From: Peribacillus simplex
GTDB lineage: Bacteria > Bacillota > Bacilli > Bacillales > DSM-1321
Length of the DNA: 64,000 bases
Assembly (NCBI RefSeq): GCF_001578185.1
Contig: NZ_CP011008.1
Coordinates: 3,066,001-3,130,000, forward strand
Direction of reading: 5' to 3'
Below, piece after piece: positions 12,173-61,140 of this stretch (position 1 is the first letter of the stretch; each line of letters starts with the position of its first letter). A program made the position numbers and the translations under genes. The notes under the pieces are model-generated. The model ran no database searches. It was not told where the DNA came from and saw only the letters and a list, made by a program, of their open reading frames with translations.

Positions 12173-12407
12173 ATTCTAAAGGCTGTTTTCACATACTTTG
12201 TTGCTATTTACCAGGTAGTGAGTTGTGGTTGATTTCCCCTCCAGATGCTCGCTTTCCTTGGTGCGGGCGGTGAGCCTCCTCGGCGTAAACGCCTGTGGGG
12301 TCTCACCTGTCCCGCTGCTCCCGCAGGAGTCTCGCACTTCCGCTCCAATCAACCTTAAATAGTTTCGTTTTAAAAACAACAATCTTTACGAAAAGAGCCA
12401 TTCTAAA
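12173..12407. mobile_element. MITE copy A (ISL3-like ends, 8-bp target duplication)
   Basis: Non-coding element of 219 bp (12181-12399) flanked by a perfect 8-bp direct repeat ATTCTAAA (12173-12180 and 12400-12407). Ends are imperfect inverted repeats: GGCTGTTTTC on the left and, reverse-complemented, GGCTCTTTTC on the right, followed at matching distance by TTGTTG in both. Ends beginning GGCT[C/G]TTT with 8-bp duplications are typical of ISL3-family elements as I recall them; mobilisation in trans by such a transposase is inference. It carries the GC-rich core (12228-12353, minus orientation) and interrupts the 3-prime end of the decayed yokU copy. Confidence 0.85.
12228..12353 (-). repeat. 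GC-rich structured core, copy A
   Basis: The 126-bp core begins GTTGATTGGAGCGG and ends GGAAATCAAC on the minus strand. It folds as one long hairpin: GTTGATT/AATCAAC outer stem, GCGGG/CCCGC, GGTGAG/CTCACC, and an apical GGCG-TTTA-CGCC hairpin. Similar cores lie at 36950, 44722 and 60941. Confidence 0.85.
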
Positions 12408-36894: not shown

Positions 36895-37126
36895 TAAAAG
36901 TAGGCTGTTTTCACATACTTTGTTGCTATTTACCAGGTAGTGAGTTGTGGTTGATTTGCCCTCCAGATGCTCGCTTTCCGCAGGGCGGGCGGTGAGCCTC
37001 CTCGGCGTAAACGCCTGTGGGGTCTCACCTGTCCCGCTGCTCGGGGAGTCTCGCACTTCCGCTCCAATCACCCTTAAATAGTTTCGTTTTAAAAACAACA
37101 ATCTTTACGAAAAGAGCCTAAAAGTA
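36895..37126. mobile_element. MITE copy B (ISL3-like ends, 8-bp target duplication)
   Basis: Element of 216 bp (36903-37118) flanked by a perfect 8-bp duplication TAAAAGTA (36895-36902 and 37119-37126). It is nearly identical to copy A in its arms (GGCTGTTTTCACATAC left, ACGAAAAGAGCC right) and carries the GC-rich core in the same orientation. It is inserted in the orfA remnant of the IS3-family element, so it arrived after that element. Confidence 0.9.
36950..37072 (-). repeat. GC-rich structured core, copy B
   Basis: A 123-bp core like copy A, with a 3- to 4-base loss in the CCTGCGGGAG segment and one change in the outer stem (GTTGATT to GGTGATT on its 5-prime side). GGTGAG/CTCACC and GGCG-TTTA-CGCC are kept. 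Confidence 0.83.
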
Positions 37127-42906: not shown

Positions 42907-43161
42907 ATGGAAACCAATAATAAAAAAGCCAGCTTGAATGAGAACCGGGAACTTGCTGATGAAGTCCTTGATATTTACAGTTTGAAGGTGTTCATCATTC
43001 TCGACCTTTTTCTGTTCTCCATTTTCTTTGGCCTACTACTGCATCCATTACTCCCTTCTCTTTGGCTTACCTTCTTATTGCCTTTGCTTTTCTTCACTAC
43101 ATTTACCGCCCTTCTTCAATTACTTGATATTCTCCAAAAAAAAAGCAGACATCATTTTTGA
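42907..43161 (+). CDS. Small two-helix membrane protein
   Basis: Protein of 84 aa. A hydrophilic N-terminus of about 27 residues is followed by two helices (VFIILDLFLFSIFFGLLL and LWLTFLLPLLFFTTFTALL) and a basic end. The stop codon falls inside the terminator hairpin at 43144. GGGTG precedes the ATG. I do not recognise a family. Confidence 0.55.
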   Translation: METNNKKASLNENRELADEVLDIYSLKVFIILDLFLFSIFFGLLLHPLLPSLWLTFLLPLLFFTTFTALLQLLDILQKKSRHHF

Positions 43162-43169
43162 TGTCTGCT
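43144..43169. repeat. Left direct repeat of the IS1182-like insertion (duplicated terminator)
   Basis: The palindromic hairpin AGCAGACATC/GATGTCTGCT with an ATTTTT loop, 26 bp, is repeated exactly at 44912-44937. It is the terminator of the plus-strand small membrane protein gene, and its duplication marks the IS insertion. Confidence 0.9.
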
Positions 43170-43280
43170 CAGTTTGTAGACAAAAGGGGTTCGGAATTAA
43201 AAAATTCCGAACCCCTTTTTGAGATTCCCTTTGAATTTTTGCCTGAAGTTAGGAGATTGGGGCTCTACGAGCCCACTATG

Positions 43281-44638
43281 TTAGGCCATTTTTGGACCTC
43301 CCCATGTCCAATTGGCCATCTTCTTTAAATTAATGGCAGCGAAAGTAAGCATCGCCTGCATCGACAATTTTTTAAGTCCCCTTAAAGTTGTCCAACGCAT
43401 ACCATGCTTTTCTTTTGCATCTGCGAATACACGCTCAATCGTTTCTTTACGTTTCGCATATATAGTTTTTACATCTTGATGATGACGCAGATGATCTGCT
43501 TCTTCCACATGTGTTTGCCAAATATGCCGTGTCACCACTTTTTGATGGTCTTTGCTTTCTGTACACTGAGATAAAAATGAGCATGTCGCACAAGTGTGTT
43601 TGGGTGATTTATACTCGCGATAGCCCTCTTTATTGGTTGTTGAGTACTTTAATAGCTCTCCCGAAGGACAAAGGTAACAATCAAAATGTTCATCGTATAC
43701 ATAGTCCTGTTTGCGGAAAAATCCTTCTTTGGTGCGAGGACGTGTATAAGGTAAAGCCGGTATGATTTCTTTGTTAAAAAGGTAGCTTGTAATCGCTGGT
43801 GTTTTATAAGCTGCATCTGCGGCAACGGCTTCTGGTTTTCCAATTTTCTCAATCACTTGTTCAACTAGTGGCTCTAAGATCTGACTGTCATGTATATTTC
43901 CAGGTGTTACAATCGTTCCCAATATAAAACCGTTGCGGTCTACGGCCGCGTGGAATGAATAGGCAAACTGTTTTGTTCGTTCATCTTTCACATAGTAGCC
44001 ACTCTCAGAATCCGTTGTACTTTCTTTAATCTCTTTGGTCTCTTCTTTATCAAATTTATCTGATGGAAAAGGCTTCTTTCCATGGTTTTCACGATCTTGA
44101 TTGATTTCTTCTTGAAGACGCCCTTGATACGCTCGTGTTTCTTTACGAACGATTTTCTTTTCAAATTTCCGTTTATTCGCACTGGCTTTCACATGTGTGG
44201 AATCCACGAAAACGTGTTCTGCACTTATTAACTTTTTATTAGCAGCTGTCATTAAAATGCGATAGAAAATCTGTTCAAACAGGTCTGTATCTTTAAAGCG
44301 TCGCTCATAATTTTTCCCAAACGTGGAGTAGGAGGTACTTTATCATGGAAACCATAGCCTAAGAACCAACGGTAAGCCATATTAGTTTCAACTTCTTCAA
44401 TCGTTTTACGCATGGAACGAATACCGAAGGTATATTGAATGAATGTCAGTTTAACTAAAATAACTGGATCAATACTTGGGCGTCCTACCTCTGAATACAT
44501 ATCTTTCACCAAGTCATAAATGAAAGTGAAGTCAATGGCAGCCTCTAGTTTACGAACCAAATGGTTCGGTGGCACCAGTTGATCTAACGTAATCATTTCA
44601 AGTTGATCTCGCTGAATAGAATCATGTTTCGAAAGCAT
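43281..44638 (-). pseudogene. Frameshifted IS1182-family transposase
   Basis: Two overlapping frames make one transposase. The first (from 44638, MLSKHDSIQRDQLEMITLDQ, then VGRPSIDPVILVKLTFIQY) is the N-terminal DUF772 domain. The second (MTAANKKLISAEHVFVDSTH, then FVDSTHVKASANKRKFEKK, AVAADAAYKTPAI and ERVFADAKEKHGMRWTTLRG) is the DDE catalytic domain. A single missing base near 44326-44331, where STFGKNYERRF should follow VPPT, breaks the frame. The catalytic Asp, Asp and Glu regions are otherwise preserved, so decay is recent. ATG 44638 follows GAGGTGATGAGG. Confidence 0.88.
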
Positions 44639-44721
44639 CCTCATCACCTCAAGTTTTAATACTTCTATTTTAAAACAAAAGCGACTCAGGGCAAAAGTGT
44701 TTATCTAAAAGATAAGACAAA

Positions 44722-44846
44722 GTTGATTGGAACGGAAGGTACGAGACTCCTGCGGGAAAAGCGCGTCTAGGGGAGACCCCGCAGGCGAAAGCCGAGGAGG
44801 CTCCCCGACCGCCCGCGGAAAGCGAGTGCCTGGAGTGGAAATCAAC
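44722..44846 (+). repeat. GC-rich structured core, copy C (inside the IS)
   Basis: A 125-bp core. Stems are GTTGATT/AATCAAC, GCGGG/CCCGC and GGGGAG/CTCCCC, with an apical GGC-GAAA-GCC hairpin, a GNRA-type loop. It lies in the IS upstream region, in plus orientation. Confidence 0.85.
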
Positions 44847-44911
44847 GGCCAAATTGTACAACTCATAAAAAATAGACAAACTCGATTTTCCTAGAGTTTG
44901 TCTACAGTCTG

Positions 44912-44937
44912 AGCAGACATCATTTTTGATGTCTGCT
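44912..44937. repeat. Right direct repeat of the IS1182-like insertion (terC terminator)
   Basis: Second exact copy of the 26-bp hairpin. On the minus strand it is followed by TCAGA rather than a T run, because the T run that originally followed is now beside the left copy; on the plus strand it keeps TTTTTT. Confidence 0.88.
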
Positions 44938-60897: not shown

Positions 60898-61140
60898 AAG
60901 ATTGTAGGCAAAAGCGGTTATATCTAATTGTTAAAACAGAGTTGATTGGAACGGAAGGTGCGAGACTCCTGCGGGAAAAGCGTGTCCAAGGGAGACCCCA
61001 CAGGCGCAAAGGCGCCGAGGAGGCTCCCGGACCGCCCGCGGAAAGTGAGTGCCTGAAGTGGAAATCAACGTTCGAATTTTTAAAACCCTCAAAAAAAACT
61101 GTAGACAAACTCGATTTTCATCGAGTTTGTCTACAGTCTG
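60898..61140. mobile_element. MITE-like copy D (IS1182-type ends)
   Basis: A 243-bp non-coding element that resembles the right-hand 270 bp of the IS at 43170. Its left end is AGATTGTAGGCAAA and its right end, reverse-complemented, CAGACTGTAGACAAA, giving imperfect inverted repeats. A perfect palindrome (CTGTAGACAAACTCG and its complement) forms the right end. It carries the GC-rich core. The right end abuts the mntR terminator hairpin AAGCTGCC/GGCAGCTT. No flanking duplication is evident. Confidence 0.7.
60941..61069 (+). repeat. GC-rich structured core, copy D
   Basis: A 129-bp core. GTTGATT/AATCAAC, GCGGG/CCCGC and GGGAG/CTCCC stems are kept, and the apical hairpin is lengthened to GGCGC-AAAG-GCGCC. 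Confidence 0.85.

Follow-up and report, generated by a model that had tools for sequence, protein, structure and literature searches.

The window, a stretch of 64,000 nucleotides from Peribacillus simplex, contains four copies of a structured core, and all four positions proposed in the initial annotation were confirmed by sequence (Table 1). Cores A and B are carried by MITEs of a single type, which recurs across the window's genome (G000). Their GGCTCT/GGCTGT ends, together with the 8-bp duplications of both copies, agree with the earlier description of GGCT[G/C]TTTTC-ended copies with 8-bp duplications. Copies C and D had been assigned CAGACTGTAGACAAA-type ends, and these ends do match; however, core C was found within a full 1742-bp element of the IS1182 family, not within a sibling MITE. 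The layout of copy C is repeated in another copy of the genome (L191). Copy D, whose boundaries were read by eye, has neither a transposase nor an evident second element end; it represents an end fragment of an element like the one that carries copy C.

Table 1. Coordinates of the four cores, their carriers and the associated features in the window
Feature	Position	Strand	Description
Core A	12228..12353	minus	126 bp
Core B	36950..37072	minus	123 bp
Core C	44722..44846	plus	125 bp; located between the end hairpin of the element and the start of the transposase, in antisense orientation to the latter
Core D	60941..61069	plus	129 bp
Copy A	12181..12399	minus	219-bp MITE; ends GGCTCTTTTCGTAAAG / GGCTGTTTTCACATAC; 8-bp duplication ATTCTAAA on each side
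Copy B	36903..37118	minus	216-bp MITE of the copy A type; 8-bp duplication TAAAAGTA
Carrier of copy C	43170..44911	minus	1742-bp IS1182-family element; minus-strand transposase, frameshifted in copy C
N-terminal transposase ORF of the copy C element	44252..44647	minus	DUF772; IS1182
C-terminal transposase ORF of the copy C element	43281..44252	minus	DDE_Tnp_1_6; IS1182, 300.6 bits (cut-off 270)
Left duplicated terminator hairpin	43144..43169		26 bp; AGCAGACATCATTTTTGATGTCTGCT; single in two relatives
Right duplicated terminator hairpin	44912..44937		26 bp; copy of AGCAGACATCATTTTTGATGTCTGCT
Copy D	about 60900..61140	plus	IS1182-type end and core; without transposase; terminator-like hairpin at the right end

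The element carrying core C ends in CAGACTGTAGACAAA and TTTGTCTACAAACTG and has the hairpin target on both sides. With the NCBIfam IS1182 model, for which the C-terminal ORF of the window exceeded the cut-off of 270, the N-terminal ORF alone scored 113.5 bits and an intact copy elsewhere in the window's genome 465.2 bits. Other transposase types scored 312.3 (G251), 266.5, just below the cut-off (G228), and 107.6 for a fragment (L415). The entire terminator-like target hairpin (19-34 bp) was duplicated in 18 of 21 complete IS1182-family elements (loci L191-L220), counted with at most one mismatch per 12 and with the duplicate locus L256 and the contig-edge locus L209 set aside. In a comparison within the genus, the joined flanks of C were matched in 17 of 31 genomes. 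Two of the genomes, G708 and G692, hold an empty site with one hairpin at this locus, and C is therefore an insertion at a terminator. Among the 12 loci examined at the C site, the core was kept in G701 (partial), G256, G278 and G690, where the transposase is in fragments or gone, and was nearly lost in G699 (25.6 bits); it was not seen at L432, L434, L436 and L437, in stretches that are possibly too short.

The terminator at the C site (L429-L440) is empty in two species and carries an IS1182 element or its remnants in others. The transposase found there in G712 (L437) runs opposite to that of the window's genome, which suggests separate insertions into one terminator. The left end of IS1182 elements (L193 and others; about 44855-44911 in the window) is itself shaped as an inward-facing terminator, a hairpin followed by a T run; once the element has inserted in a host terminator, this end could shut off transcription reading through into the transposase.

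The MITEs fall into two frames, both with 8-bp duplications: frame A with the ends GGCTCTTTTC / GGCTGTTTTC and frame B with the ends GGCTCTGTTAAA. Terminal inverted repeats (TIR) with a duplication of at least 8 bp (one mismatch allowed) were detected around 48 of 199 cores, as opposed to 16 of 597 control pairings. The ends of these 48 were A-type in 35 (G000, G003, G082), B-type in seven (G003, G243, G085) and of other kinds, possibly by chance, in six. In the named genomes both arms of frame A lay near a core in 14 of 118 cases, as did both arms of frame B (14 of 118), and control windows gave 0 for each. Frame A and B MITEs contain no transposase, at lengths of 219 and 216 bp for the window copies and 184-188 bp for seven B-type copies (G003, G243). 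A decayed IS1595 element (L190; 52.5 bits, cut-off 75) has B-like ends GGCTTTGTTAA and seven of eight duplication bases; A-type ends are similar to it in layout alone. Judged by this one decayed element, frame B is probably of the IS1595 type. IS1595 was represented by one decayed copy in G000, with no match in G046, G153, G097 and G264. No transposase for frame A was found with the ISL3 and IS1595 profiles in the genomes examined, and ISL3 was rejected as its source for the window's genome, which contains no PF01610 match. Apart from L190, no convincing autonomous A or B element appeared in the DNA examined.

These observations agree with the proposal in the initial annotation that two unrelated frameworks carry the core, namely GGCTCT/GGCTGT-ended MITEs with 8-bp duplications on the one hand and IS1182 elements with hairpin targets on the other. 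The cores were not tied to a single end type, nor did the A/B and C/D arms prove homologous to each other. Among 126 cores in the named genomes, nine were assigned to frame A, 15 to frame B, seven to the IS1182 framework (frame I) and 95 to none of the three; the framework around a core is often decayed or not recognised.

The core is widespread. In the window's genome (5.5 Mb), queries with core C and with core A each returned at least 40 matches. A sample of Bacillales contained a match in 205 of 299 genomes and 85 of 116 genera. A phylum-wide search of 398 genomes, in which stricter filters lost weak matches, found four genomes, three of Bacillales (the window's own included) and one other of the same class. 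The covariance model matched 125 times in G003, 79 in G278, 61 in G029, 43 in G243, 22 in G190 and 14 in G126, and a pattern scan of the named genomes yielded at least 119 stretches. Among the matches listed (80 with titles), nearly all came from Bacillaceae and Planococcaceae-type genera, plus Pisciglobus and one record labelled Paenibacillus; the genera represented include Peribacillus, Neobacillus, Cytobacillus, Metabacillus, Rossellomorea, Sutcliffiella, Priestia, Oceanobacillus, Halobacillus, Salibacterium, Sporosarcina, Ureibacillus and others.

Carriage by phages was rejected, as core D had no match in 50,697 phage records and one stretch in viral contigs showed the exact core pattern. 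Fourteen plasmid records matched the core, with identities of up to 97.7%. On plasmids of B. subtilis SRCM102749 and P. megaterium (L121, L122), the same partial match lies beside zwf/gnd in different species, suggesting carriage on mobile plasmid segments. In G278, three cores form a tandem array with a period of about 176 bp (L258; G278:C1:4309900-4313400).

No core in the window reached an Rfam gathering score, and core C gave far sub-threshold matches only. Within the whole window, the gathering score was reached only by a SAM riboswitch at 2135-2289 (RF00162, 74.2 bits). Furthermore, we recognised no published description of the core sequence in a literature search that mostly excluded subscription papers. 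The core is a large unnamed repeat family of Bacillales. Roughly two in three genomes sampled from this major order contain it, with up to 125 matches per counted genome, yet it has no Rfam match.

The plus strand of the core (GTTGATTGG...AATCAAC) folds as one long imperfect hairpin. Across 33 diverse cores, the 45 pairs of this hairpin were 94.8% standard, and both sides had changed in 16 of them; shuffles gave 4.3 (sd 1.4), with none of 500 reaching as high, and sliding the partners gave 1-4. For the alignments used below, partial or low-scoring cores were left out. In 163 distinct cores, pairs with a Watson-Crick majority contained 250 G.T/T.G cells as opposed to 100 A.C/C.A cells. The lean toward G.T was seen in 34 of 36 genomes and the reverse in none, and it was not uniform along the hairpin, with 24 pairs leaning toward G.T and six toward A.C. 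The plus strand was also predicted to be more stable than its complement in 145 of the 163 cores with RNA parameters and in 149 with DNA parameters. The asymmetry, together with the stability of the plus strand, argues for a folded single strand and disfavours a double-stranded cruciform. The strand preference fits single-stranded DNA as much as RNA.

The near-invariant middle of the core (at least 95% over 111 sources) consists mainly of GACTCCTGCGGGA, AGACCCC, GAGGAGGCT and GGAAAGC. The GTTGATT/AATCAAC inverted repeats pointed out earlier do form the basal stem, but they are not invariant: in other genera they are replaced while the GC-rich middle stays. The replacement consists either of other complementary arms, for example GAGTTATTCGCTA / TAGCGAATAAC in G153, or of arms of the GTGGATT / AAGGAAC type. 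Since the basal stem is replaceable and the middle is kept, the unit is defined by its middle and not by its ends. Cores of other genera also have hairpins inserted at places. A coding function was rejected because the length varies between 119 and 131 and the indels are not multiples of three.

Next to genes, the core has a characteristic position. Once cores with fewer than 90 model positions had been dropped, 3 of 214 lay inside ORFs of at least 150 aa, compared with 2986 of 4280 random points. Orientation was counted where each side of the core had a called gene no more than 600 bases away, which left 146 or 147 of the 214. Gaps with a core were convergent in 42 and divergent in 14 of 147 cases (41 and 14 of 146 in a parallel count), and the gaps without a core comprised 192 convergent, 257 divergent and 809 tandem ones (Fisher p=6e-6 for convergent versus divergent against this background). 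In tandem gaps, 60 cores were sense and 31 antisense (p=0.003), a split that pools related copies and builds on crude ORFs as gene calls. The bias is not in every sample: sense and antisense cores numbered 31 and 14 in the named genomes, 12 and 3 in G290/G233/G139/G269, and 7 and 2 in G153, but were nearly even in G046 (7 and 6) and reversed in G000 (3 and 6). Tandem gaps of frame I were reversed as well (3 sense versus 8 antisense), as expected where the neighbouring gene is the transposase. Overall, the core is intergenic, occurs preferentially behind genes and favours the sense strand when the gap is tandem.

Almost all pairs observed in IS1182 elements have a core that faces away from the transposase gene, toward the outside. 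The ORF lay 5' of the core in 68 of 71 transposase-ORF/core pairs, 3' in one (in G046, with the core outside the IS element) and overlapping in two; these pairs are not independent, as G000 and a single transposase cluster supply the majority, and 63 of 74 ORFs fall in one cluster at 60% identity. A core upstream of the transposase and inside the element was present at 11 of 30 IS1182 loci, with L212 weak (15.5 bits) and L209 and L211 not judgeable, and was antisense in all 11. Such upstream cores occupy two placements. One, that of C, lies before the promoter-like TTTTAAAATAG; the other, at L200, L202 and L210, falls between this motif and the ribosome-binding site. Cores located after the stop codon of the transposase occur in G029, G126, G228 and G269, and these have the sense direction. 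The outward direction holds for both the 5' and the 3' placement and in transposase clusters below 60% identity.

This geometry could reflect a hairpin of single-stranded DNA that serves transposition. The outward strand would be the 3'-hydroxyl strand at each element end, and the hairpin might aid end processing, repair or replication restart. Such a role accounts for the outward placement, seen on both sides of the ORF and in divergent clusters, better than a reading at the RNA level does, and IS1182 elements target hairpins, in the elements examined here as in a published report (PMC5678879). On the other hand, the core is dispensable, given that the close relative L193, an IS1182 element whose transposase is 88% identical, has none. 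Moreover, the dependence among the ORF/core pairs weakens the count, and the sense bias outside IS1182 elements would be left unaccounted for. We consider a role in transposition of this kind unlikely.

An outward strand could also carry a recombination signal. AGCGG is the Chi sequence of B. subtilis and would here be oriented to stop AddAB entering from the element end. Of 245 distinct cores, 153 have one or more copies of it on the plus strand, as opposed to just five with a copy on the minus strand. However, 92 of the 245 cores have no AGCGG, cores C and D of the window included, and C and D have changed both sides of a pair (AC/GT for GC/GC), which means that the pairing was kept and not the motif. 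A recombination signal is very improbable as the function of the core.

The initial annotation had further suggested that the core moves between element types, and comparison of core alleles supported this. The IS1182 elements of G243, G220 and G143 have transposases that are 85-87% identical and cores that are 78-79% identical to the IS1182 cores of the window's own genome. Frame-B cores compared with the same IS1182 cores were 86-90% identical in G168, G261 and G265 and 75-82% identical in G003, G029, G126 and G243. Within G243, the IS1182 core is 84% identical to the frame-B cores. G029 and G126 each have one IS1182 element with two cores, before and after the transposase, which are 76% and 74% identical to each other, respectively, and the 3' cores of the two genomes are 89% identical (all medians). 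As some cores of the same frame are less alike than some cores of different frames, alleles have crossed between frameworks. On a tree of 41 cores, 11 framework changes were counted, where the minimum is 2 and the shuffled mean 19.2; starred branches force at least two changes per label, and 20 of 38 inner branches are open. None of 200 shuffles gave a count as low, and because the labels are clustered in this way, the exchange was occasional and not free. The history of the core combines exchange between frames with inheritance within frames, and the core may be a common working part borrowed by mobile elements.

The clustering of framework labels would also be expected if the core were a functionless passenger, a hairpin spread by MITE and IS amplification, its arms shuffled by recombination between near-identical cores and its complementarity kept by template switching. 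The left arm of copy A is present in 42 copies in the window's genome, and all 30 examined hold either the core or what a deletion has left of it, a pattern that fits a founder burst; the 95 named-genome cores without recognisable ends fit such a history as well. In three copies of G000 (L022, L029, L132), the 3' arm of the core complements the 5' arm almost perfectly, which is the expected outcome of template switching and suggests that it took place there. Nevertheless, template switching should produce perfect palindromes, whereas mismatched purine loops and a U-G pair are maintained and near-perfect outer arms were found in just 5 of 240 cores. The G.T/A.C asymmetry, the near-invariant middle over 111 sources and the sense bias are likewise unexpected for a neutral sequence. 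Passenger status is a somewhat doubtful explanation.

The reading we prefer, with a probability of roughly 45%, is that the core is an ERIC-like structured repeat that acts mainly through RNA, by forming a hairpin within untranslated regions, and is carried by unrelated transposons. Intergenic, repeated and folding as a covarying hairpin, it has the features of this kind of repeat. It is a single-strand hairpin module of about 125 bases, recurrent in Bacillales, with at least two unrelated DDE transposon frameworks, the GGCTCT/GGCTGT-ended MITEs and the IS1182-family elements, as its carriers. Each carrier would be copied by its own kind of transposase, and the core would contribute no known transposition function. 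Once transcribed within untranslated regions, the hairpin might be bound by a host factor that is itself conserved, such as a double-strand RNase or an RNA-binding protein, and this recognition might alter the processing or stability of the mRNA, by analogy with ERIC and Correia repeats. In the 5' placement of IS1182 elements the folding strand is antisense to the transposase, and its transcription would require an outward promoter; none was seen by eye in this placement.

A more tentative proposal is that the core is an interchangeable end-module, a one-strand hairpin for a host factor conserved across Bacillales. IS1182 elements and GGCTCT-ended MITEs would have gained this module and passed it between them repeatedly, and in IS1182 it faces outward. 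If so, transposons would possess a part of a new kind, a factor-binding cassette common to transposases from different families. If the core acts in RNA, the untranslated regions of many genes in relatives of Bacillus would be affected; if it acts in transposition, unrelated transposases would have a part in common. The question is directly testable, given that the placement is outward, that alleles have been exchanged and that core-less elements exist.

Among known systems, ERIC offers the closest comparison for the repeat reading. Two reports describe it as an intergenic repeat of about 127 bp with tens to hundreds of copies, found in many genera and predicted to form a single long stem-loop (PMC2267715, PMC10969869); by this description, the core resembles ERIC in length, intergenic site, copy number, multi-genus spread and long stem-loop. 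ERIC and Correia repeats are both structured and intergenic and are reported to act on mRNA (PMC10969869). ERIC belongs to enterobacteria and Vibrio, whereas the core was found in Bacillales, and the core differs further in being nested in transposons with different identifiable ends. The Bhal-1 family of B. halodurans, described as a stem-loop family of 74 nt with 36 copies (PMC2267715), is like the core a structured intergenic repeat of a Bacillaceae genome, although shorter; compared by description, it could overlap with the core family.

The carriers can be compared in the same way. The frame A and B copies are, like other MITEs, short and transposase-free, with TIR and 8-bp duplications. 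Their ends are probably of the IS1595 type, and they differ from other MITEs in that the IS1182 framework, to which they are unrelated, has the same interior. With its IS1182 transposase and hairpin target, the carrier of copy C is a member of a family in which hairpin targeting has a precedent in IS1272 (PMC5678879), and the elements described here are distinguished by an additional hairpin module close to one end or to both. The IS1272 element of S. aureus reportedly replaces its target hairpin without duplication (PMC5678879), whereas 18 of the 21 complete IS1182 elements described here have the whole hairpin duplicated.
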